Both the position numbers and the translations under genes were made by a program. Positions 2,328 through 18,473 of a stretch of DNA of 64,000 nucleotides are shown in pieces. Under the pieces are notes generated by a model. The model was not told the origin of the DNA. It saw nothing but the letters and a program-made list of their open reading frames with translations, and did no database searches. Origin of the DNA: Sipunculus nudus. Lineage: Eukaryota > Annelida > Sipuncula > Golfingiida > Sipunculidae. Position 1 is the first letter of the stretch; each line of letters opens with the position of its first letter. The stretch lies in contig CM049308.1 of NCBI GenBank assembly GCA_026874595.1, positions 93,859,624-93,923,623 on the forward strand. The letters run 5' to 3'.

Positions 2328-3686
2328 ATGAAGTACCAAAACACCCTTGTGGTAGATAACTTACCAGTAGATGTGCAGCAAGCAGAACTCGGGGATCACT
2401 TTGGTGCTGCGGGTGACGTGGAGCATGTGTTGCTGGTTCCTTCAGACTCTAGTCCGGACCAGGCTTTCATTGTCTTTGCCTCCTCATCCGCAGTTACCAA
2501 GGTTCTTAGTTCTCCCAGTTTTGCTGAATGGCAGACTCCATCGGGAGCTGTGTCACTAAAAGTAAAAGCTGCCACAACCGATCATGAGAACTGTATACGA
2601 GAATTGATCGCTGAGGGGAAATCATCCTTAACAGATCCGCTAGATATTTTTCTAGATAGACTGTCCTCTGACAATCTTAACAGATTAAAGCATAAAATAG
2701 AGGATAGGATGGCTTATCAGAGGATCCCTTCTTTTCCAGAGGGCGCTGCCATGGGTCCTAACCTAGTGTATACAATGTCCCAGAAACCACGTTTACCCAC
2801 ATTTTCCGGTGACCCCCAAACAAAAGACACCCCTTTTCGCCAGTGGCGTTACCAAGTTGACTGTCTCTTAGATAACAGATGTTACCGCCACCAAGATATA
2901 GAGGAGGCAATTAGACTGTCCCTTAGAGGTTCAGCCGCGGAGGTTCTTCTTTACCTGGACCCATCTGCCCCTCTTACTGATTTGATCCACCACTTAGACC
3001 TCACGTTTGGAGAGGTGGTAGACATTAATATGATAAGGGAGCAGTATTATGGGGCCCAACAAGAAACTGGGGAGACCATCGTTAAATGGGGCTGTCGTAT
3101 TCAAAAGCTTCTACACAGTTTAAAGCAACGGGGTGAAATCTCAGACCACGAGGCTCGTAGCAGTCTATGTTCAAGATTCTGGTATGGATTAAATGACCTC
3201 CATCAACCCGTGAAAGATGCCCTACGTCCCACTTTAAAATCGGGTACGTCCTTTGAAGTTCTTTTTAGTGCAGCCCGGGAGCTCGAGGTTGAATATATGC
3301 CTATGATGACTCCATCAAAACCTTCCCCTGGGGGTGGTAACATTAGGAGACCCAATTTAAAACCCTCTCAAAATTCCCAACAACAGTCACTTAGTGATCT
3401 TTCCCAAATGGTCAATACAGTGTTACAAAAACTAGAAGGTATTGAATCTCGCCTTACGAGAGTCGAAACAACCCAAAGCTATAGACATAGTAGACCAACC
3501 ACTCCTGCCTATCGAAAGAGTAACGCTACAGTTTCAGAACAAAATTCGAATCCACCTGAACTAGCCACGTTTTGCACCAGGTGTAAACGTAATAACCATT
3601 CTGTTCAAGACTGTAGAGCACGTCGTGACGTAACTGGTAAGCCTTTAAACTCCGGTCCACCTGCGCCAGTCAGTGGGAGGACGTAG
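2328..3686 (+). CDS. gag: Ty3/Gypsy Gag polyprotein with N-terminal RRM-like domain
   Basis: The 452-residue product is the structural (nucleocapsid) protein of an LTR retrotransposon. Residues 5-85 look like an RRM/ferredoxin fold: an RNP2-like strand LVVDNLP at 7-13 and an RNP1-like strand QAFIVFAS at 45-52. The middle (about 150-310) is the helical retrotransposon Gag/capsid region, with typical features such as FRQWRYQVD and a run of helices ending near LEVEY. Residues 365-395 form a short coiled coil. A single CCHC zinc knuckle of the form CX2CX4HX4C uses C416, C419, H424 and C429. The RRM-plus-capsid-plus-knuckle plan is that of the vertebrate PNMA family and its Gypsy relatives. The frame is uninterrupted, and ATG 2328 is the first in-frame start giving the whole RRM. 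The end overlaps the pol frame by 46 bases. Confidence 0.9.
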   Translation: MKYQNTLVVDNLPVDVQQAELGDHFGAAGDVEHVLLVPSDSSPDQAFIVFASSSAVTKVLSSPSFAEWQTPSGAVSLKVKAATTDHENCIRELIAEGKSSLTDPLDIFLDRLSSDNLNRLKHKIEDRMAYQRIPSFPEGAAMGPNLVYTMSQKPRLPTFSGDPQTKDTPFRQWRYQVDCLLDNRCYRHQDIEEAIRLSLRGSAAEVLLYLDPSAPLTDLIHHLDLTFGEVVDINMIREQYYGAQQETGETIVKWGCRIQKLLHSLKQRGEISDHEARSSLCSRFWYGLNDLHQPVKDALRPTLKSGTSFEVLFSAARELEVEYMPMMTPSKPSPGGGNIRRPNLKPSQNSQQQSLSDLSQMVNTVLQKLEGIESRLTRVETTQSYRHSRPTTPAYRKSNATVSEQNSNPPELATFCTRCKRNNHSVQDCRARRDVTGKPLNSGPPAPVSGRT

Positions 3687-6600
3687 GTCGGACACACAGG
3701 CCCACTAAACCCAAGGTTATACCTGTTGCTTTGACCGGGGATGTAGATTGTGTCTCGCTCGCATCACAGGGGGTTCCATGTACCGGTTTACTAGACACTG
3801 GCTCTTCTGTTACCACAGTGGCTGAACATTTCTACAATCAGTATGTGTCTTCTTTACCAATCCAACAAATATCTGATGTCCTTAACATAGAGGTCGCAGG
3901 GGGAAATAATCTCGAATACCTTGGCATTGTTGAAATAAATTTAAATTTTCCAGGTGTATTGGATAAAATTTTTCCAACTCCCGTATTACTGGTAAAAGAT
4001 ACAACCTTTAATGCGTTGCACCCTTTTGTAATTGGACAGAATGTCCTAAAGCAGTGTGCTCGGATACTTCGCGGTGATGGGGGCCCTAGGTTCCTCCAGA
4101 AGAGTAAAATTCCCGATGCCTGGCGGTCAGCCTTAAAATGCTGTACTTTTGCGACTGCTAAATCTTCCTCAATAGGCCTCGTCACCTCCTTTAGGCAAAT
4201 AACTATTCCACCAAATCAGTCTCTTACTGTACCAGGTAAAACCCGGGCTTGTACATACGGAAAGACGTTGATTGTAACAGAACCTTACGGTCCTCTTCCG
4301 GCGGGATTAGCAGTAGACCCTCTATTGATGGAGGTAAACTTGCAAAATCGTTCAGAGAAACGATTCGATATAAGAATGTCTAATCTTACAAATGACATTG
4401 TTACTATTCCAGCGAAAACAACCATCTGTTCGTTGCAATTGGCCTCTGTTGTTCCTTCAGGCAAATCCAGCCTCGAGGCCAACGATAACGTACTTGATCA
4501 ATTTACCATTGATCCCTCCCTTTCCCTTACGGAAAGACAGCAAGTCCTGGACCTGCTGTGGGAGTGGCGAGACATTTTTGCTAAGCATGATTTGGATCTT
4601 GGGCGCACAGATAAAGTTAAACACAAAATTGTTCTGTCAGACTCTGCCCCTTTTCGCGAGGCATATCGACGTATCCCTCCACACCTTTATCAGGAGGTGC
4701 GCGATCACATAAGGGAAATGCTCGAATTGGGGGTGATTAGAGATAGTTGCAGCCCATATTCGTCAGCTATTGTTCTAGTCAGAAAGCCAGATGATAAGCT
4801 ACGCTTCTGCATAGACTATCGCAAGCTTAATGCTAAAACTGTCCGTGATGCTTACTCATTACCACGTATAGATGACACCTTAGATTCGCTAGTTGGGAGT
4901 AAATACTTCTCTTCTCTCGATTTGAAAGCGGGGTACTGGCAGGTTGAAGTAGAGGAGGAGGATAAGCCTAAAACCGCATTCACTGCAGGTCCTCTCGGGT
5001 TTTTCGAATGGAATACGATGCCGTTCGGTTTAATTAACGCCCCCGCCACGTTCCAACGCCTTATGCAAAAGACAATGGGTGATCTCCATCTGTCTCAGTG
5101 TCTCCTCTATCTTGACGATATTATAGTGTTCAGTTCCACCTTTCAAGAACACTTAGATCGACTTACGGCAGTCTTTAAACGTCTGAAAGAGGCTGGATTG
5201 AAATTGAAACCCAGTAAATGTCATTTGTTCAAAAAACAAGTAAATTACCTTGGCCATGTTGTTTCGGCTAAAGGAATCCAAACTGACCCCACTAAAATTG
5301 AAGCCTTGAAGAACTGGCCCATTCCATCTTCCGTAACTGAAGTCCGACGTTTCCTTGGCTTTGCCAGCTTTTACCGAAAGTTCGTGCGTAATTTTGCTCA
5401 AATCGCAAGGCCCCTCCATGACCTCCTTAAAGGCGAAGGCTCTAGTATAAGTCCTGCATCTAAGAAGCGTAAATCCAAAGCACCACCTTTTGTATGGGGT
5501 CCAGACCAAAAGTCCTCCTTTGAGAAACTGATAGAGCTCCTGTGTAAAGCCCCAGTTTTGGCGTATGCAGACTTTTCTAAGCCTTTTATTTTGCATACAG
5601 ACGCTTCTAGATCTGGCTTAGGGGCGGTTCTATACCAGGAACACGATTCGAAACTGAAACCCATTGCTTATGCCAGCCGCAGTCTAAACAGGTCTGAGCA
5701 GAATTATGCTGTTCACAAACTAGAATTCCTGGCCTTAAAATGGGCGGTTGTTGACAAATACAAAGATTACTTGTATGGGGGCAATTTTACTGTCAAGACT
5801 GACAATAATCCCCTTTGCTATGTGTTAACCACCGCAAAACTGGATGCCACAGGGCATAGGTGGGTGGCTGCATTAGCAAACTTTAACTTTAAAATAGAAT
5901 ATCGGTCCGGAAAAAGGAACGTCGATGCTGACTTCCTATCCAGGACTTGTAATCTTCCCAGTACGGATGATTCTCTCTCTCCTGATATTCTGTCTTCAGA
6001 TTTGGTTCAAGCTATATGCCAGTCTCACCTGCCCGGTTGTACAGGACTACAAAACACCAATCATGACCCATTTATTCCATTTGTATCCCTTAGCCTCCCT
6101 TCTATGCCAATAGACATGATTCAGGAGCAATCAAAAGATCTTGTCCTTAAAACAGTCATAGAAGCTATAAAAAGCGGGAACAAACTAAAATACCGTAAAG
6201 GGGACTCGACTGAGCTGCTGTGTTATCAGACTGAGCTGCTGTGTTATCAGCGCCACCTATCTAAATTTCTCATCAATAAAGGCGTCTTATGTAGAAAACG
6301 GATTGTAGATGACATAGAGACTTTGCAGGTAGTTTTGCCTACCGCTTTGCGTCAAACGGCTCTCAAGGGGCTCCATGATGATATGGGCCATATGGGTCAG
6401 ACTAGAACAATCAACCTAGTACAAGATCGTTTCTTTTGGCCTGGTATGAACAAACATATCACAGAGTATGTAGCTCAGTGTCCACGATGTGTGAGACGAA
6501 AAACTCCTACCTGCCAAAGAGCACCTCTTGTAAACATCCAATCCTCAGCCCCTCTAGAAATTTTGTGCATAGATTTCCTATCTCTGAAACCCAGTAAAGG

Positions 6601-7018
6601 TAACATAGAAAATATATTAGTGGTTACTGATCATTTTACTAAGTTTGCCAGGGCATTCCCATGTAAAAGCCAAAAAGCAAAACCAACCGCTCAACTGTTA
6701 TGGGATAATTTTATCTGTAACTACGGATTTCCCCAAAGAATCCATTCCGATCAGGGGCGAAATTTTGAAAGCAAAGTTATCAAAGATTTGTGCACTCTAG
6801 CTGGTATCGAAAAGTCGCACACAAGTCCCTACCATCCCATGGGCAATGGGCAGTGCGAGCGCTTCAATCGCACGCTACTGAATATGTTAGGCTGTTTAGA
6901 ACCTAATCAAAAGAAAGATTGGAAACTCTTTGTTAATTCTGTTACCCATGCCTATAACTGTACCGGTACATCTAACCTCCGTTATTTCCGTCTATCCATC
7001 ATTTCCCCCCACTCCTAA
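3641..7018 (+). CDS. pol: Ty3/Gypsy Pol polyprotein (PR-RT-RH-INT), truncated in integrase
   Basis: Expressed by -1 frameshift from gag; it needs no ATG of its own. Domain order is that of Ty3/Gypsy. Aspartic protease has DTGS at 3794-3805. Reverse transcriptase runs about 4640-5250, with the FCIDYRKLN motif and catalytic YLDD at 5108-5119. RNase H runs about 5550-5940, first Asp in HTDAS at 5600. Integrase has an HHCC zinc finger about 6370-6490 and a catalytic triad D 6572, D 6749, E 6857 with the expected 35-residue D-E spacing. The last authentic residues are HAYNCT at about 6946-6962. There the inverted repeat begins and supplies a foreign tail to the stop at 7016-7018. The C-terminal integrase domain and 3' LTR are therefore missing, so this copy cannot transpose by itself although everything upstream is open. 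Confidence 0.93.
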   Translation, partial: AFKLRSTCASQWEDVGRTHRPTKPKVIPVALTGDVDCVSLASQGVPCTGLLDTGSSVTTVAEHFYNQYVSSLPIQQISDVLNIEVAGGNNLEYLGIVEINLNFPGVLDKIFPTPVLLVKDTTFNALHPFVIGQNVLKQCARILRGDGGPRFLQKSKIPDAWRSALKCCTFATAKSSSIGLVTSFRQITIPPNQSLTVPGKTRACTYGKTLIVTEPYGPLPAGLAVDPLLMEVNLQNRSEKRFDIRMSNLTNDIVTIPAKTTICSLQLASVVPSGKSSLEANDNVLDQFTIDPSLSLTERQQVLDLLWEWRDIFAKHDLDLGRTDKVKHKIVLSDSAPFREAYRRIPPHLYQEVRDHIREMLELGVIRDSCSPYSSAIVLVRKPDDKLRFCIDYRKLNAKTVRDAYSLPRIDDTLDSLVGSKYFSSLDLKAGYWQVEVEEEDKPKTAFTAGPLGFFEWNTMPFGLINAPATFQRLMQKTMGDLHLSQCLLYLDDIIVFSSTFQEHLDRLTAVFKRLKEAGLKLKPSKCHLFKKQVNYLGHVVSAKGIQTDPTKIEALKNWPIPSSVTEVRRFLGFASFYRKFVRNFAQIARPLHDLLKGEGSSISPASKKRKSKAPPFVWGPDQKSSFEKLIELLCKAPVLAYADFSKPFILHTDASRSGLGAVLYQEHDSKLKPIAYASRSLNRSEQNYAVHKLEFLALKWAVVDKYKDYLYGGNFTVKTDNNPLCYVLTTAKLDATGHRWVAALANFNFKIEYRSGKRNVDADFLSRTCNLPSTDDSLSPDILSSDLVQAICQSHLPGCTGLQNTNHDPFIPFVSLSLPSMPIDMIQEQSKDLVLKTVIEAIKSGNKLKYRKGDSTELLCYQTELLCYQRHLSKFLINKGVLCRKRIVDDIETLQVVLPTALRQTALKGLHDDMGHMGQTRTINLVQDRFFWPGMNKHITEYVAQCPRCVRRKTPTCQRAPLVNIQSSAPLEILCIDFLSLKPSKGNIENILVVTDHFTKFARAFPCKSQKAKPTAQLLWDNFICNYGFPQRIHSDQGRNFESKVIKDLCTLAGIEKSHTSPYHPMGNGQCERFNRTLLNMLGCLEPNQKKDWKLFVNSVTHAYNCTGTSNLRYFRLSIISPHS
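3644..3682 (+). promoter_or_regulatory. Programmed -1 ribosomal frameshift signal between gag and pol
   Basis: Positions 3644-3650 read TTTAAAC, a perfect X XXY YYZ slippery heptamer in register with gag (T TTA AAC) and with the -1 pol frame (TTT AAA C). The pol frame is open from 3641 (stop TAA at 3638-3640) and gag stops at 3684-3686, so the heptamer sits exactly in the overlap. Four bases downstream a stem-loop can form: 3655-3662 pairs with 3675-3682 (GTCC/GGAC, one A-A mismatch, CCT/GGG) round a 12-base loop. TTTAAAC is one of the most efficient known -1 sites. Confidence 0.85.
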
Positions 7019-7712
7019 GGCATCAGCAATATTTAAAAATAAGCTTGAAAATGCATAGAATTGAGTGAACAGGATTTAAAACATAACAGAACTAATTGTA
7101 ACACTCGTATTGAATAATTCTATAAAATCGTATTTTCTTTTATAAAATATAATGAGAAAATGGGTCTACGGCATAAATATGAGTAAAGAGAAAATGGTTC
7201 TACAGCAACGGCCTTCTCTCAAACAAACGCAGACGTTATGACTATAACCGTGCTGCCGTCTATCGGTGGATGCTCGCACTAATTCGAGCTAACCCATAAC
7301 CCCCCCCCCCCCCCTTCTCTCTTTTATTTTGGACAACTTGAATTACCACGAAATGTTAGCGAAATGTATAAGAAATTCCTACAAACGTTCATAAACCTCG
7401 CATAAACGTATTTTAAACTTAAACCACTTAGCATTGTGGCAGAACTCACTGTGGGAATATGCCAAGTTACTTTCAACCTAAAAAATCTGATCCTGTAAAT
7501 AAAAGTACAATCCTATGCATTAAAAGTACCAGAACCACTGACCAATGACTGACTCCCAGTAACTTTCCACTTAATTATTGATTTTGAACCTCACCTTTGA
7601 TAGCCCTGCTGCAAAATTCACGTTAAATTCATACACAACTTTCACCAAGCGTTCTGCGCCTGGCGATGTTGATGATTCGTCATCGGGAACCACCTGTTTG
7701 CGCGCGGCGGCC
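6958..7712 (-). repeat. Right arm of large inverted repeat
   Basis: Reverse complement of 1-754. Its inner edge falls inside the integrase codons (NCT then TGTACCGGTACA), so it replaced the 3' part of the Gypsy element. It contains a C homopolymer at about 7301-7315. The outer part has a minus-strand open frame that is also open in the other arm, but nothing in it resembles a known protein. Confidence 0.9.
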
Positions 7713-8551
7713 TCGTTGTTCTCGCCCGCTGTTCCCTTTATAAACCATTCCCCTTTCATAACACACATTAGTCCTTCTATTTATTATGTTACGATTATTA
7801 TGTTACGAAGTAATGTTAATATGGGTGATCAACCAAAGATATCCCATACCTACAAGTAAATAAATATTTACCGAGGTAGATTTCTTGAATTTCCTAGGGG
7901 AGATAAACAACCATTATCCGTCCCTCCAAATATAGTGGGATACCCCCTTCGCTCTTCCATCATAGACTCCCAGAAAATAACCACCCCGAATGTTTTCACT
8001 AAGAAATTTACTACAATCATTGGTCATATTTATATTTTACCTTGTAATAGCATAATTACTTTGAATGATAACAATATAAAACATTATGTACTTAAGAATG
8101 ATACTTAGCCTAGATGTTTCACATTTGTATACTTATTGATGTTATTATAGATAAAAGATATAAACGAAGTGAAATCTTAGTGGTATTGTTTGTGTATAGT
8201 TGTACACAAACATAATGTGTATGAATAGTTAGATGTAAACAAATATAAAACTAGATGAGGGTTTGAGATAAAGATTGATAGATATGTACAAACAAGATGT
8301 TAGATAGTATGAGACTAGTTGTTTAAAAGATATGTATAATAACATGGTTATAATAATAACATGGTTATAATAACATGCAGTGAAGATTTCAGGTAAACCT
8401 ACCTTAATGAATATCTTGTGTACTTGTTGCAGATGCATACATTGCATTTGAGTATATTTATATACAGTTTAATAAGCAATCCAGTATTTGTAAACAATAA
8501 GTTGAGTACCTTTATATACATTATAATGAGCAGTCCAATATTTGTAAACAA
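7713..8551. other. AT-rich stretch, no gene seen
   Basis: I see no ORF, RNA gene or recognisable repeat apart from a short near-duplication (GCAGTCCAATATTTGTAAAC-like) at about 8478-8550. Confidence 0.5.
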
Positions 8552-8623
8552 TATGATCACGTGAGTCCAGCCTCATGTCATGCTTTCGACAACACGTCGA
8601 TTCTGATCTTGTCCACTTTGTTG
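8552..8623 (+). repeat. Inverted copy of the 1131-1192 block
   Basis: Nearly identical reverse complement of 1131-1192. It lies just upstream of the LTR array. The match ends at TTGCAG at its right edge. Confidence 0.6.
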
Positions 8624-8868
8624 CAGAATAAACAGTTGTCAAGTGTCAGCTGCGTGTCGTTTACCATTTGTGTGTGTGCGAGTGGGCCACGAACCAGACC
8701 CCGCCTTACCGCCCGCCCGCGACACTGGCGCAGCCTGCAGGATTCGATATCGCAGCTGGACACTGATACTCCAGGTGGACTTCCGGTTGGACGCACTGTC
8801 ATGAATGGGCCTCCAGTCCTTGGACCCCGGGCACCCATGTGGAGACGGCCAGTCGGAGAGGGGGTGAA
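8624..8868 (+). mobile_element. GC-rich internal segment ending in a polypurine tract
   Basis: This GC-rich stretch is unlike its AT-rich surroundings. Its last bases (about 8853-8868) are GGAGAGGGGGTGAA, the same purine tract that precedes the two downstream LTRs, so it is probably the 3' end of an internal region belonging to the same element family. Its left limit is not defined. Confidence 0.5.
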
Positions 8869-9013
8869 TGTAACCGGACACACAAAAGCGTTCCTACTGG
8901 CCTTCCTAGTGAAGCTTGCTTTATTAGCGAAGCGGTAGAACGTCTGACTTGTGTGTCACAGGTTACGGGTTCGAACCCACATTCGGGCCAGGTTTCTATT
9001 TTCACCCGTTACA
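8869..9013 (+). repeat. LTR 1 of the miniature element, contains tRNA-like Pol III promoter
   Basis: TGTAAC...GTTACA. Inside is an A box TAGCGAAGCGG (8925-8935, perfect to TRGCNNAGYGG) and a B box GGTTCGAACCC (8968-8978) at tRNA-like spacing. The cloverleaf is degenerate: acceptor and T stems do not pair well, so it is tRNA-derived rather than a working tRNA gene. Confidence 0.8.
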
Positions 9014-9015
9014 AA

Positions 9016-9033
9016 TGGTGGCAGCGGTGGGAT
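9016..9033 (+). other. Primer-binding site for tRNA-Leu
   Basis: TGGTGGCAGCGGTGGGAT is complementary to the last 18 nt of eukaryotic tRNA-Leu (AAG/TAG isoacceptors) including the non-templated CCA. It lies 2 bp after LTR 1. An identical site follows LTR 2 at 9286-9303. Confidence 0.85.
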
Positions 9034-9138
9034 CCGGGGAGTTGGTGTCGTGGCATGATGCCCCACCCAGTTCACGTGTGTGACCCCCGGGATAGATCCC
9101 ACGTTCTGGGGACAGAACGTCCTCGGAGAGGGGGTGAA

Positions 9139-9283
9139 TGTAACCGGACACACAAAAGCGTACCTACTGGCCTTGCTAGTGAAGCTTGCTTTATTAGCGA
9201 AGCGGTAGAACGTCTGACTTGTGTGTCACAGGTTACGGGTTCGAACCCACATTCGGGCCTGGTTACCATTTTCACCCGTTACA
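9139..9283 (+). repeat. LTR 2 of the miniature element
   Basis: Same ends and same A box (9195-9205) and B box (9238-9248) as LTR 1, 270 bp downstream, with few substitutions. Followed by PBS at 9286-9303. Confidence 0.8.
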
Positions 9284-9408
9284 AATGGTGGCAGCGGTGG
9301 GATCTGGGGAGTTGGTGTCGTGGCATGATGCCCCACCCAGTTCACGTGTGTGACCCCCGGGATAGATCCCACGTTCTGGGGCCAGAACGTCCTCGGAGAG
9401 GGGGTAAA

Positions 9409-9553
9409 TGTAACCGGACACACAAAAGCGTTCCTACTGGCCTTGCTAGTGAGGCTTGCTTTATTAGCGAAGCGGTAGAACGTCTGACTTGTGTGTCACA
9501 GGTTACGGGTTCGAACCCACATTCGGGCCTGGTTTCCATTTTCACCCGTTACA
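9409..9553 (+). repeat. LTR 3 of the miniature element
   Basis: Third copy, with A box 9465-9475 and B box 9508-9518. Its PBS at 9556-9573 is the one that continues into tRNA-Leu cDNA. Confidence 0.8.
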
Positions 9554-9555
9554 AA

Positions 9556-9613
9556 TGGTGGCAGCGGTGGGATTCGAACCCACGCCTCCGAAGAGACTGG
9601 TGCCTCAAACCAG
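9556..9613 (+). other. PBS extended into tRNA-Leu primer cDNA
   Basis: The first 18 bases are the normal PBS. The next 40 continue as the exact complement of a tRNA-Leu: T arm, Leu-type variable arm with TCTCTTCGGAGG, and the whole anticodon arm. On the tRNA strand the anticodon arm reads CTGGT-TTGAGGC-ACCAG, giving GAG at 34-36. The copy ends exactly after tRNA nucleotide 27, and Gypsy pol sequence begins. Total length matches CCA plus nucleotides 73-27 with an eight-base longer variable arm. The other two PBS copies leave tRNA identity after base 18-20. Confidence 0.85.
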
Positions 9614-10857
9614 TCAGCATCGACGTTCCTTTTTCCGGACCGATATTCTATTTTAAAGTTAAAGTTTGCTAATGCAGCCACCCACCTATGCCCTGTGGCA
9701 TCCAGTTTTGCGGTGGTTAACACATAGCAAAGGGGATTATTGTCAGTCTTGACAGTAAAATTGCCCCCATACAAGTAATCTTTGTATTTGTCAACAACCG
9801 CCCATTTTAAGGCCAGGAATTCTAGTTTGTGAACAGCATAATTCTGCTCAGATCTGTTTAGACTGTGGCTTGCATAAGCAATTGGTTTCAGTTTCGAATC
9901 GTGTTCCTGGTATAGAACCGCCCCTAAGCCAGATCTAGAAGCGTCTGTATGCAAAATAAAAGGCTTAGAAAAGTCTGCATACGCCAAAACTGGGGCTTTA
10001 CACAGGAGCTCTATCAGTTTCTCAAAGGAGGACTTTTGGTCTGGACCCCATACAAAAGGTGGTGCTTTGGATTTACGCTTCTTAGATGCAGGACTTATAC
10101 TAGAGCCTTCGCCTTTAAGGAGGTCATGGAGGGGCCTTGCGATTTGAGCAAAATTACGCACGAACTTTCGGTAAAAGCTGGCAAAGCCAAGGAAACGTCG
10201 GACTTCAGTTACGGAAGATGGAATGGGCCAGTTCTTCAAGGCTTCAATTTTAGTGGGGTCAGTTTGGATTCCTTTAGCCGAAACAACATGGCCAAGGTAA
10301 TTTACTTGTTTTTTGAACAAATGACATTTACTGGGTTTCAATTTCAATCCAGCCTCTTTCAGACGTTTAAAGACTGCCGTAAGTCGATCTAAGTGTTCTT
10401 GAAAGGTGGAACTGAACACTATAATATCGTCAAGATAGAGGAGACACTGAGACAGATGGAGATCACCCATTGTCTTTTGCATTAGGCGTTGGAACGTGGC
10501 GGGGGCGTTAATTAAACCGAACGGCATCGTATTCCATTCGAAAAACCCGAGAGGACCTGCAGTGAATGCGGTTTTAGGCTTATCCTCCTCCTCTACTTCA
10601 ACCTGCCAGTACCCCGCTTTCAAATCGAGAGAAGAGAAGTATTTACTCCCAACTAGCGAATCTAAGGTGTCATCTATACGTGGTAATGAGTAAGCATCAC
10701 GGACAGTTTTAGCATTAAGCTTGCGATAGTCTATGCAGAAGCGTAGCTTATCATCTGGCTTTCTGACTAGAACAATAGCTGACGAATATGGGCTGCAACT
10801 ATCTCTAATCACCCCCAATTCGAGCATTTCCCTTATGTGATCGCGCACCTCCTGATA
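9612..10857 (-). pseudogene. Antisense Gypsy pol fragment (RT and RNase H), near-identical to 4690-5933
   Basis: On the minus strand this encodes the pol segment from YQEVRDHI through RT (YLDD) to the RNase H end KRNVDAD. It matches the upstream pol protein at all but one residue (Arg to His in YASRSLNRS), so the copies are very recent relatives. It lacks gag, protease, the first RT residues and integrase. At its 3' end (left) it joins tRNA-Leu cDNA at shared AG. At its 5' end (right) it stops at a TATATATATATACACAC run. It is not a gene; it is a retro-inserted or strand-transferred fragment. Confidence 0.92.
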
Positions 10858-11430: not shown

Positions 11431-14400
11431 ACTTTTCATATGAAGTGTCGGATATACGTTTTCGGTTAAATAATTAATCCTTATACAGACCATAATGATA
11501 CACTCAGTTTGCATTTAAGAAAGGACAAGGTAACTTGGGGTTTCATTTTTGTTTTCATATAAAGTATCAGATACATAGTCCACTTTAATGAAAACATTTA
11601 TTTTCAAGCAATTTATATCTGGGAAAATTTAAATAATTGCAATGTTTGCTTTGACGTTAGAAAAATAAGAAACCAACATTAAATGAAATTTGATTAATGC
11701 TCGAAAAACATAAAGAACGTGTTAGCATGCATATATGGAATATATATAAATACGCTCAATTGAATTTAAAAAAATCAAGGTTAATATGGACCTTATCCTT
11801 TAAGTTTTAGATACATATCTAACAGAAGAATAAATTTATTTTCATAAAATGTATATATGGACAAAGTAACATTAGAGCAATGTTTGCCTGGCGTTAGAAA
11901 ACAATGTTACATAGTATAATTAAATAAAATTCGAACAATAAACGGATAACGTTCGGAAAAGGTTAAAAATACACGGAATTAGCATTTAAAAGAAATGACA
12001 AGATAAGTTTTGGATTTCAATTTTTGATTTTTATGAAGTATCCAATACATTCCAAACCAGTGAATACATTTATTTTCGAGAAATATAAATATGGAAAACA
12101 TACGTTAAGGCAATGTTTGCTTGACGTTAGAAGATGTTATATAGTAATATTGAGTAACATTCAAACAATACTCAGATAACGTTTAGAAAAGGTTAGTATG
12201 GGTCAAAGTAAATACAGTCTACGACTAGGTAACTCTGGATTTTACTTTTGTTTTCATAAAGTATCAAAAACATTCGCAAATAAAGATTACATGTATTTTC
12301 AAGAGAGATATATATGTGGACAAAATAACATTGGAGCTATGTTGTCCTGGCGTCAGATAAAAATATTATTCCAACATTAAATCACATCTGATTGATGTTC
12401 GGGAAACATTAGGAAAATATTAGCCGATGGAAAAAAATAAATACGCTCAATTTCAAAGAAACCTCAGAATAAATTCGATCTTATCTTTGTTCTAATACTT
12501 TCATAAGAAAAGAATACATTTTCATGAAATGTATATATGGATATATATTAACATTAGAGCAATGTTTGTCTGGCGTTAGAAAAAAATGTTATATAGTAAT
12601 ATTAAATAACATCCGAACAATATTCAGACAACGTTCGGAAAAGGTTAGCAAAGTTCAAAGTAAAGACACACTGAATTTGCATTTAAAAGAAATGACAAGA
12701 TAATTATTGGATTTCATTTTTGTTTTTATGAAGTATCCAATACATTGCAAACCATTGAATACATTTATTTTCGAGAAATATTAATATGGACAAATTAACA
12801 TTAGAGTAATGTTTGCCTGGCGTTGGAAAAAGTGTTATATTTAATAACATTCGAAAAATAGTCGGATAACGTTCGGAAAATGTTAGCAAAGGTCGAAGTA
12901 AAAATAGACTGAATTTGCATGTTAAAGAAATTACAAGATAAATTTTGGATTTAATTTTTGTTTTCACGAAGTATCAAATACATAAAAAACCAGCGAATAC
13001 ATTTATTTTCGAGAAATATAAATATGGACAACATAAGTTAGGGCGATGTTTGCTTGACGTTAGAAAAAAGTTTTATAGTAATATTGAGTAACATTCGAAC
13101 ATTAGTCAGATAACGTTTGGAAAAGGTTAGTATGGGTCAAAGTAAATACAGACTATACGACAAGGTAACTGTGGATTTTACTTTTGTTTTCATAAAGTAT
13201 CAAATACATTCGCAAATAAAGAATACGTTTATTTTCATGAGATGTATATATGGACAAAATAACATTGGAGCAATGTTGTCCTGGCGTCCGATACAAATAT
13301 TTCCCCAATATTAAATAACATATGATTAATGTTCGAAAAACGTTAGGAAAATAGTAGCGTATGGAAAAATATAAATACGCACAATTTCAAGGAAAACCTC
13401 AGAGTAACTGTGATCTTATCTATTTTCTAATAAGTTTTAGATACATTCCTAACAAAAGAATAAATTTATTTTCATGAAATGTATATATGGATATAATAAC
13501 ATTAGAGCAATGTTTGCCTGGCGTTAGAAAAAAAGGTTATATAGTAATATTGAATAACATTCGAACAATAGTCGGATAACTTTCGGAAAAGGTTAGCAAA
13601 AGTCAAAGTAAAAATACACTATATTTGCATTTAAAAGAAATTCCAGATAAATTTTGGATTTCATGTTTTATTTTCATGAAGTATTAAATACATTAAAAAC
13701 CAGTTAATACATTTATTTTCGAGAACTATAAATATGGAAATCATACGTTAGGGCGATGTTTGCTTGACGTTAGACAAATGTTTTATAGTAATATTGAGTA
13801 ACATTCGAACAATAGTCAGATAACGTTTGGAAAAGGTTAGTATGGGTCAAAGTAAATACAGACTACGACAAGGTAACTCTGGATTTTACTTTTGTTTTCA
13901 TAAAGTATCAAATACATTCGCAAATAAAGAATACGTTTATTTTCAAGAGATGTATATATGGACAAAATAACATTGGAGCAATGTTGTCCTGGCGTCCGAT
14001 ACAAATATTTCCCCAATATTAAATAACATATGATTAATGTTCGAAAAACGTTAGGAAAATATTAGCGTATGGAAAAATATAAATACGCACAATTTCAAGG
14101 AAAACCTCAGAGTAACTGTGATCTTATCTATTTTCTAATAAGTTTAAGATACATTCCTAACAAAAGACTAAATTTATTTTCATGAAATGTATAAATGGAT
14201 ATAATAACATTAGAGCAATGTTTGCCTGGCGTTAGAAAAAAAGGTTATATAGTAATATTGAATAACATTCGAACAATAGTCGGATAACGTTCGGAAAAGG
14301 TTAGCAAAAGTCAAAGTAATAATACACTATATTTGCATTTAAAAGAAATTCAAGATAAATTTTGGATTTCATGTTTTATTTTCATGAAGTATTAAATACA

Positions 14401-15870
14401 TTAAAAACCAGTTAATACATTTATTTTCGAGAAATATAAATATGGAAAACATACGTTAAGGCGATGTTTGCTTGACGTTAGACAAATGTTTTATAGTAAT
14501 ATTGAGTAACATTCGAACAATAGTCAGATAACGTTTGGAAAAGGTTAGTATGGGTCAAAGTAAATACAGACTACGACAAGGTAACTCTGGATTTTACTTT
14601 TGTTTTCATAAAGTATCAAATACATTCGCAAATAAAGAATACGTTTATTTTCATGAGATGTATATATGGACAAAATAACATTGGAGCAATGTTGTCCTGG
14701 CGTCCGATACAAATATTTCCCCAATATTAAATAACATCTGATTAATGTTCGAAAAACGTTAGGAAAATATTAGCGTATGGAAAAATATAAATACGCACAA
14801 TTTCAAGGAAAACCTCAGAGTAACTGTGATCTTGTCTATTTTCTAATAAGTTTAAGATACATTCCTAACAAAAGAATGAATTTATTTTCATGAAATGTAT
14901 AAAAGGATATAATAACATTAGAGCAATGTTTGCCTGGCGTTAGAAAAAAAGGTTATATAGTAATATTGAATAACATTCGAACAATAGTCGGATAACGTTC
15001 GGAAAAGGTTAGCAAAAGTCAAAGTAAAAATACACTATATTTGCATTTAAAAGAAATTCAAGATAAATCTTGGATTTCATGTTTTATTTTCATGAAGTAT
15101 TAAATACATTAAAAACCAGTTAATACATTTATTTTCGAGAAATATAAATATGGAAAACATACGTTAAGGCGATGTTTGCTTGACGTTAGACAAATGTTTT
15201 ATAGTAATATTGAGTAACATTCGAACAATAGTCAGATAACGTTTGGAAAAGGTTAGTATGGGTCAAAGTAAATACAGACTACGACAAGGTAACTCTGGAT
15301 ATTACTTTTGTTTTCATAAAGTATCAAACACATTCGCAAATAAAGAATACGTTTATTTTCAAGAGATGCATATATGGACAAAATAACATTGGAGCAATGT
15401 TGTCCTGGCGTCCGATACAAATATTTCCCCAATATTAAATAACATCTGATTAATGTTCGAAAAACGATAGGAAAATATTAGCGTATGGAAAAATATAAAT
15501 ACGCACAATTTCAAGGAAAACCTCAGAGTAACTGTGATCTTATCTATTTTCTAATAAGTTTTAGATACATTCCTAACAAAAGAATACATTTATTTTCATG
15601 AAATATATATACGGATATATTAACATTAGGGCAATGTTTGCCTGGCGTTAGAATAAAAGGTTATATAGTAATATTGAACAACATTCGAACAATAGTCGAA
15701 TAACGTTCGTTAGGGAAACGTTATCCAAATATTATATAACATTCGACAAAACGTTCGGAAAACGTCCAGAAACTGTTAGCATAAGGTCAAAGAAAAGGCA
15801 CGCTCAATTTGTATTTGAAAGAAACCTCAAGGTTACTTTGGATCTGATATTTTTTATACTGGGTATCGGT
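11430..15870. repeat. Satellite array: ~235 bp monomers in a 708 bp higher-order repeat
   Basis: About 18 diverged monomers of 222-247 bp each carry a core like CAATGTTTGCCTGGCGTTAG and runs such as AACGTTCGGAAAAGGTTAG. From about 13131 the array is organised in trimers: the marker TATGGGTCAAAG recurs at 13131, 13841, 14549 and 15257 (spacing 710, 708, 708), and trimers are nearly identical while monomers within a trimer differ clearly. The interval before it (12197 to 13131, 934 bp) holds four monomers. Edges are degenerate, as expected for satellite margins. Open frames in it are by-products of the repeat. Confidence 0.9.
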
Positions 15871-17561: not shown

Positions 17562-18013
17562 AGGTCAAGCAAACGTATTCCAAATCTCATTATATTATCA
17601 TATAACATAATTGCCTATGAAAAAATGTTAATATAGATTTTACATTAAATGAGCCCAATTCCTGCAGGAAAAACATTCTATTTTTCCACTAAAAACATGA
17701 GGTTGTGTGATTTGTTCAAAAACTATGGGCACATCTATGAGCACTGTCAAATCGGCAGTGACATCACACACTGGGAAACCCCCTGTGACTAAAAATTCTA
17801 GATCTCAGTAAAAGCACAGTATTTCCGCCTCTGTCAGTCCCAAATTTTCAGCAGAGAATAAAAACAACATGTATTACTAGATCTGAGTTGTTGATAAAAT
17901 TCAGTCCATGATGTCACACGTGTACCAGCCAATCAAATCAGGGCAAAGTCTGGGATCTGGATGAAATCCTCCCATCACACAACAAACGCACGTGGAATAG
18001 GTTTACTTAACCT
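17562..18013 (+). mobile_element. MITE, copy 1 (tandem pair in LTR)
   Basis: Non-coding ~452 bp element with imperfect 13 bp terminal inverted repeats: AGGTCAAGCAAAC at the left and the complement of AGGTTAAGTAAAC at the right. It is joined to copy 2 by two or three bases. The intact LTR at 22800 shows the empty sequence GCGATGTAGCGC. Confidence 0.85.
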
Positions 18014-18015
18014 TC

Positions 18016-18473
18016 AGGTCAAGCAAACGTATTCCAAATCTCATTATATTATCATATAACATAATTGCCTATGAAAAAAATATTAATATAGATTTTACAT
18101 TAAATGAGCCCAATTCCTGCAGGAAAAACATTTTTTCTATCTATTTTTTCCACTAAAAACATGAGGTTGTGTGATTTGTTCAAAAACTATGGGCACATCT
18201 ATGAGCACTGTCAAATCGACAGTGACGTCACTGGGAAACCCCCTGTGACTAAAAATTCTAGATCTCAGTAAAAGCACAGTATTTCCGCCTCTGTCAGTCC
18301 CAAATTTTCAGCAGAGAATAAAAACAACATGTATTACTAGATCTGAGTTGTTGATAAAATTCAGTCCATGATGTCACACGTGTACCAGCCAATCAAATCA
18401 GGGCAAAGTCTGGGATCTGGATGAAATCCTCCCATCACACAACAAACGCACGTGGAATAGGTTTACTTAACCT
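18016..18473 (+). mobile_element. MITE, copy 2 (tandem pair in LTR)
   Basis: Near-identical to copy 1, apart from a short indel in the T-rich stretch and loss of a few bases. Flanks TGTA on both sides of the pair suggest a short target duplication. Confidence 0.85.

Follow-up and report, generated by a model that had tools for sequence, protein, structure and literature searches.

TRIMs are short, non-autonomous LTR elements, and two described groups come close to the one reported here. Helenus TRIMs share with it A and B boxes in the LTR, a primer-binding site (PBS), a polypurine tract (PPT) and, in animals, a 4-bp target duplication (Kojima 2024, PMC10886601). In the accessible text of that paper, tRNA-Leu is not among the primers of bivalve Helenus elements, whereas hymenopteran and vertebrate Helenus do use it. 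Primer read-through, which is present in the TRIM of our locus, is not described in that text. The biv-TRIM, according to the accessible part of PMC6934838, is also a short TRIM that makes tandem LTR-internal arrays. However, it has an LTR of 202–218 bp and an internal domain of 77–80 bp without an unambiguous PBS; the present element has 145 and 125 bp, and on this size difference it is not a biv-TRIM.

The stop of the plus strand on the primer tRNA, so far studied with enzymes and HIV-infected cells, is readable here from chromosomes. In HIV, read-through past m1A58 gives minor stops, one of them at modified position 37, as stated in the accessible text of PMC13191261. Both m2,2G26 and m1G37 hinder reverse transcriptases; the available portion of PMC11417395 lists them for many zebrafish tRNAs and also reports that inosine, which pairs with C, makes reverse transcription insert G. 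One study cited in PMC13191261 found more than 90% I34 in tRNA-Leu(AAG), in cells and in virus particles. Inosine read as G is an internal sign of an edited tRNA template rather than a gene.

We analysed 64,000 nucleotides of the Sipunculus nudus genome (the window). A TRIM tandem array at 8853–9555, on contig C3 of the 1.43-Gb genome, holds three LTRs and two complete internal domains (Table 1). The unit is non-coding and has many dispersed copies in the genome. Its 145/125/145 bp form has the two short LTRs, short non-coding interior, PBS and PPT of a TRIM. Each internal domain begins with an 18-nt primer site for the CCA end of tRNA-Leu, located 2 bases past the LTR, and ends with the polypurine tract. 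The three LTRs are not those of the flanking Gypsy element, whose own LTR, about 1.77 kb long, has another sequence.

Table 1. Features of the TRIM array, its Gypsy flanks and the tRNA-Leu copy. Positions are those of the window unless a contig is given.
Feature	Position	Strand	Remark
Copy of the pol piece in the neighbouring Gypsy gag-pol, highest score of the other copies scored	4688..5933	+	
Gypsy LTR, same family as the pol piece, about 1.77 kb	6953..8724	+	
Gypsy primer-binding site, not tRNA-Leu	8726..8743	+	
Gypsy leader	8744..8850	+	TRIM sequence begins 2 bases later
Left end of the array: truncated TRIM internal domain with PPT	8853..8868	+	
TRIM LTR 1	8869..9013	+	
TRIM internal domain 1 (PBS 9016-9033, PPT 9125-9138)	9014..9138	+	
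TRIM LTR 2	9139..9283	+	
TRIM internal domain 2 (PBS 9286-9303, PPT 9395-9408)	9284..9408	+	
TRIM LTR 3 (A-box-like 9465-9475, B-box-like 9508-9518)	9409..9553	+	
PBS, complement of the tRNA-Leu 3' end including CCA	9556..9573	+	
Copy of tRNA-Leu nt 58 to 27, including variable arm and anticodon arm	9574..9613	+	39/40 bases as in AAG genes
C opposite tRNA position 34 (A34 in AAG genes), probable inosine-34 footprint	9606	+	
Antisense Gypsy pol piece (reverse transcriptase, RNase H), AG common with the tRNA copy	9612..10857	-	
TRIM variant with GCGGGGAGTCGG	C4:212; C4:97436482; C4:97521792; C8:78578		

The TRIM LTR contains TAGCGAAGCGG at the A-box position and GGTTCGAACCC at the B-box position. 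The consensus used for these boxes is in part general background and in part that of PMC10886601. ARAGORN found no tRNA in the window, and Rfam placed no tRNA family on the TRIM LTRs within 8500–9900, one overlapping match of the same clan being suppressed. The five Rfam matches in that region are all below the gathering score, and the most significant is a tmRNA-type match on the tRNA copy. Among 16 TRIM loci viewed, 4-bp target duplications are seen as TACA (L051), TATG (L087) and ATTC (L086); several of the 16 sit in TATA or (TA)n, where the length of a duplication is unreadable, L052 is flanked by AATA and TATA, and L081 has none. The boxes, PBS, PPT and 4-bp duplication would make the element Helenus-like, and the name is kept at that because recognition of the LTR by tRNA models gave no clear match. 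TATA ends the left TRIM flank in 8 of the 16 loci, several within (TA)n tracts, which suggests a target-site preference for TATA/(TA)n. A TRIM on C2 (L085, 373–513) has a normal primer-site junction and a 16-nt insertion repeating part of its own internal domain. Four TRIM-variant copies with GCGGGGAGTCGG after the primer site lie less than 100 kb from contig ends, among the matches listed.

LTR 3 is followed by AA and the PBS; the internal domain is absent, and the complement of tRNA-Leu takes its place up to 9613. The first-pass annotation had read the 40 bases past the PBS as exact tRNA-Leu complement, joined to antisense Gypsy pol at a common AG. The junction at AG is confirmed, and the tRNA-Leu genes with anticodon AAG agree at 39 of the 40 bases, the sole difference being tRNA nt 34. 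Such a 40-base match cannot be due to chance: a 32-nt LTR-PBS-tRNA pattern has 3 matches in the genome at up to 2 mismatches, and its reversed control has none.

The source of the copy was sought with 35 nt of the variable arm and T arm over the whole genome (up to 2 mismatches). All of the 62 places found were read: 58 are tRNA-Leu genes, divided equally into 29 with anticodon AAG and 29 with TAG, and 4 are LTR junctions. No GAG anticodon and no encoded CCA occurs in the 58 genes. An additional tRNA-Leu gene outside the 62 places, L062, has anticodon AAG. The window copy has GAG. Alignment to the tRNA-Leu genes of the species, which the first-pass annotation had proposed, shows 19 of the 29 AAG genes identical to the copy over nt 27–73 except at nt 34. 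An exact search of the 1.43 Gb with the 17-nt GAG anticodon arm returned a single place, the window copy, with 0 for the control. A genome-wide search for a tRNA gene or SINE having the same bases and the same right flank, which would have made the locus a simple DNA insertion, was negative. Many of the tRNA-Leu genes are clustered: an array of 51 lies at C5:52594028-52636333 (L042–L046), with AAG and TAG genes largely alternating.

The copy reads GAG, no GAG gene was found, and A34 to G is the change that inosine predicts; the template of reverse transcription was therefore most likely a mature, edited tRNA. The G at nt 34 is probably the signature of inosine-34, and the earlier proposal that the mature primer tRNA was copied past A58 is well supported by the same two observations. 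A tRNA gene, a SINE or a processed tRNA as source fails on the missing GAG gene and on the register of the copy with the PBS. The editing footprint is confined to the window copy, 1 of 4 junction loci being informative for inosine, and one A-to-G mutation arising later at nt 34 would look the same. In all four junctions the copy starts exactly at the PBS and includes CCA, against 0 of the 58 genes; CCA sits inside the PBS, so that its presence is consistent with a copied mature tRNA and is not decisive alone.

The first-pass annotation had also called for a wider search for LTR-PBS-tRNA junctions, which added three in the TRIM family of the window. The primer site plus 7 tRNA bases (up to 2 mismatches) occurs at 28 places in the genome, 20 of which coincide in position with tRNA genes read in the preceding search; the remaining 8 were read individually. 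The non-gene places are the window, L050, L051 and L052 of the same TRIM family, L057 of another LTR element, L079 and L080. L079 is a weak match and was set aside. L057 was rejected as a TRIM junction, its tRNA-Leu primer site belonging to a different LTR; at about 1456–1575 (C2:86312333), 9–10 nt of tRNA complement with one mismatch precede a diverged repeat of the LTR end. L080 (C16:1589150), also rejected, is a degenerate tRNA-Leu-like copy with CCA and no LTR recognised alongside, perhaps an old tRNA retrocopy or an old junction. The genome search thus gives 4 LTR-PBS-tRNA junctions versus 115 normal TRIM junctions, numbers obtained with two patterns of unequal length at up to 2 mismatches each, which count junctions rather than insertions and miss more diverged copies.

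L080 indicates that tRNA retrocopies may exist in this genome, and a retrotransposed tRNA pseudogene, a SINE or one with a LINE-made tail, might have landed by chance beside LTR 3. This is the most improbable of the explanations considered, as the copy is in PBS register and the LTR-PBS gap of 2 nt or 1 nt is kept in 4 of 4 loci. That TRIM, tRNA and pol were brought together by an artefact of the assembly or the library is scarcely credible either, in view of four loci with distinct flanks, a clean target duplication in L051 and a genome without a GAG source to mis-join. A copied primer tRNA remains the preferred reading of the four junctions.

Both L051 and L052, on C8, are complete elements with two LTRs. 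Their tRNA copy extends to C38 and then passes into their own TRIM internal domain at a common TGGTG. The 4-bp duplication TACA and the 99.3% identity of the LTRs in L051 indicate that a read-through molecule was finished and integrated. The LTRs of L052 are 96% identical and its flanks lack a clean duplication; L052 is the older of the two. L050, on C11, differs from the window copy in anticodon: it reads CCTAAAA, which fits tRNA-Leu(UAG) and neither AAG nor inosine, and it ends in an A run at U31–U34. Unrelated sequence follows for about 640 bases, up to an LTR-like CGCGACA beside a (TA)n tract that resembles the (TA)n on the left of the locus. The TRIM LTR, the tRNA-Leu(UAG) copy and the second piece (3143–3975 of C11:29836000-29842500) are thus set inside a (TA)n tract. 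L050 is possibly one cDNA with two unrelated LTR ends, the right end being judged by inspection to be the LTR of another element.

A tree built on 30 LTRs at 17 loci was used to examine how the junction loci are related; it draws on the best TRIM matches and the junction loci, and omits one divergent LTR and an inverted fragment of L081 as well as a truncated LTR of L088. Support ranges from 0.23 to 0.98 and is modest, the sequences being short and similar. L088 and L082, both with the normal junction, each have an LTR allied to a junction locus: that of L088 is identical to LTR 1 of L051, and that of L082 groups with L050. L052 forms a separate lineage. LTR 3 of the window groups with L002, L004 and L005, of which L002 and L005 have the normal junction and L004 is a solo LTR. 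At this modest support, the four junction loci fall in different LTR subgroups, three of them beside copies with normal junctions. Because of this placement and the differing end points of the copies, there were probably at least three, and likely four, separate read-through events.

An old inherited tRNA extension could also be imagined, with the normal internal start as a deletion derivative and L051 and L052 keeping the ancestral form. Compared by eye, the normal start TCCGGGGAGTTGGTG and the stretch TCCGAAGAGACTGGTG of the tRNA complement do agree at about 12 of 15 sites, and the L051 and L052 junctions are alike. Yet a search for the long form (40 of 297 candidates scored) gave 41 matches, in which only L051 and L052 span 158 bases and the other 39 span 138–144. 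LTR 1 of L051, moreover, is identical to one LTR of normal-form L088, and the window and L050 copies extend past the common end of L051 and L052 and so cannot descend from it. This explanation is therefore unlikely. The resemblance of the normal start to the tRNA complement may reflect an older read-through behind the whole TRIM family.

Recombination of DNA is a further alternative: the TRIM primer site would have recombined with a genomic tRNA-Leu(AAG) gene through 14–15 common bases, and a later break at nt 27 would have been joined to pol. In its favour, tRNA-Leu genes are abundant, with 51 in the C5 array, and have bases in common with the primer site; the copies in L051 and L052 stop short of the anticodon and are silent on editing; and the neighbouring Gypsy copy is the best other pol match among those scored. 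However, with no GAG gene found, this route requires an extra A-to-G exactly at nt 34, for which the chance is about 0.6–0.8% given exactly one random substitution in 55 or 40 sites. It also requires two breaks against one strand ending, plus recurrence in four loci. We regard it as very unlikely and retain reverse transcription of the edited primer.

The end points of the copies bear on the tRNA modifications. The first-pass annotation had placed the stop after nucleotide 27. This nucleotide stands as the furthest extent of the copy, while the exact stop does not: because AG is common to tRNA and pol, the end is only resolved to nt 29–27. The copies in L051 and L052 end at nt 42–38, within the TGGTG microhomology, and that in L050 at nt 35–31, within the A run, having passed G37 without error. 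The end points are thus blurred by microhomology (AG, TGGTG, A run). The next nucleotide is G26 in the window and G37 in both L051 and L052. Three of the four events therefore appear likely to end beside a modification block, and m2,2G26 and m1G37 would be the cause of the stops. The end point of L050 (U31–U34) adjoins no modification block known to us. Position 58 is T in all four copies, that is, it was read as A. Either m1A58 was faithfully bypassed, or the tRNA was unmethylated there and presented no block to bypass.

The pol piece is the reverse complement of 4688–5933, which lies in the gag-pol of the Gypsy next to it, and differs from it at 5 of 1246 positions; four of the five fall within 31 bases. 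Seventeen other full-span copies at 97% identity or above are found among the 40 of 258 candidates scored, so the Gypsy family was probably active recently. The neighbouring copy, 3.7 kb away, is the best match by a narrow difference (2225 bits, the runner-up having 2216, with 40 of 258 candidates scored), and its position would also suit a local DNA event. Gypsy sequence occurs on the other side as well. To the left of the array, bases 8400–8850 comprise the end of a Gypsy LTR, the primer site and the leader, all of the family that the pol piece belongs to. Matches to this stretch sit beside pol matches on C3, C5, C10, C12 and C17, among the matches listed. Of the listed family matches that pass the Gypsy LTR end, 16 of 17 stop at 8850 and one at 8824, and among 39 other long matches listed, 38 place the LTR start at 6953. 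The Gypsy and TRIM DNA searches scored at most 40 candidates each, and their counts refer to those. From left to right, the block consists of the sense-oriented Gypsy leader, the TRIM array, the tRNA copy and the antisense Gypsy pol.

The Gypsy primer site at 8726–8743 is one which we take to be tRNA-Ser-like. A tRNA-Leu-primed Gypsy as driver of the TRIM was considered and provisionally rejected, the best tRNA-Leu primer-site match in 1000–2330 being 10/18 and the element's own site differing. TRIM and flanking Gypsy do not have a common primer, and this Gypsy need not be the usual driver of the TRIM.

Several other features of the window were noted. At 6952/6953 the start of the Gypsy LTR directly meets the integrase region of another gag-pol belonging to this family, about 2 kb short of where the C10 copy would place the 3' LTR of that gag-pol; this geometry could result from self-integration. 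The Gypsy Gag frame (2328–3683) has an N-terminal RNA-recognition motif (RRM_1) with PNMA-like and zinc-finger domains. An A+T-rich satellite with 708-bp higher-order repeats occupies 11490–15710. A direct repeat of 245 bp, 100% identical and 460 bp apart, lies at 17769–18473 inside a larger duplicated stretch.

The best explanation of the junction, and very probably the right one, is a read-through copy of the edited primer tRNA-Leu(AAG) by the plus strand, followed by a template switch to Gypsy pol. The primer would be a mature, CCA-bearing tRNA-Leu(AAG), edited from A34 to I34 and still joined to the TRIM minus strand at the 5' end of that DNA. The minus strand primed by it on TRIM RNA would have switched earlier to Gypsy RNA, giving the left leader junction. 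The plus strand would then copy this back, pass through the LTR, copy the 18-nt primer-site part without stopping at position 58, and continue along the T arm and the variable arm and across the anticodon loop, where I34 would be read as G. It would end at nt 29–27, beside G26 (probably m2,2G26). Through the 2-nt AG match the free 3' end would transfer to Gypsy pol in sense orientation, for which genomic RNA in the same particle is the simplest template, and be extended as antisense pol. The whole block would be a chimeric cDNA, with TRIM and Gypsy in one particle.

The first-pass annotation had taken the junction for a plus-strand strong-stop intermediate. The order of LTR, PBS and tRNA bears this out in part, but the molecule need not be a classical strong-stop product; a longer chimeric plus strand fits better, given that the array is also fused, on its left, to the Gypsy leader. 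The chimera was probably formed during reverse transcription in a shared particle, since one Gypsy family flanks the array on both sides. This scheme starts from the observed sequence and order, the uniqueness of GAG, the recurrence in three more loci and the Gypsy on both sides, and supposes the modifications, an RNA template for pol, the shared particle and the route of integration.

Read-through molecules can be integrated and inherited, and their tRNA copies can tell which isoacceptor, AAG or UAG, primed each event. The union of a non-autonomous TRIM with a many-copy, near-identical Gypsy family in one chimeric DNA gives a lead on which element moves the TRIM. We are inclined, with some reserve, to see integrated LTR elements as a fossil record of tRNA modification, in which I34 appears as a base change and blocked G37 or G26 as end points, and to see position-58 read-through as no dead end but a recurrent, heritable source of primer-site-proximal sequence and chimeric elements. 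Whether tRNA modification limits retroelement DNA in germ cells is now testable.

The mechanism is textbook reverse transcription carried one step too far; the unusual part is a genomic record with a sign of the RNA template. In openly licensed literature, searched by titles and the starts of abstracts, we found no report of an integrated LTR element with an inosine-marked copy of its primer tRNA. Copies of the tRNA primer in retroviral laboratory DNA are already known, and inherited, recurrent copies with an editing footprint look new. The murine leukaemia virus circle is alike in that the tRNA was kept on the minus strand and copied, with the tRNA 5' end missing. In the accessible account, however, it is unintegrated laboratory DNA with a spurious primer and a loss of 4 nt, whereas the TRIM copies are integrated, derive from a tRNA that fits the primer site, occur at several loci and show an editing footprint in one. 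Beside an HIV provirus in a Jurkat clone, a CCA-bearing, reverse-transcribed mature tRNA-Gly is likewise joined to LTR-element DNA (PMC12220202). That tRNA-Gly is not the cognate primer, the authors regard provirus and tRNA as two independent events, and the accessible text describes no evidence of inosine. The HIV read-through past m1A58 is the same step as in the TRIM copies, with minor stops at modified nucleotides including 37 (PMC13191261). These are biochemical or cell-culture products, and those stopped at 37 are described, in the part of the paper available, as unable to serve further. Unlike them, the L051 and L052 copies ending at nt 38 were inherited.
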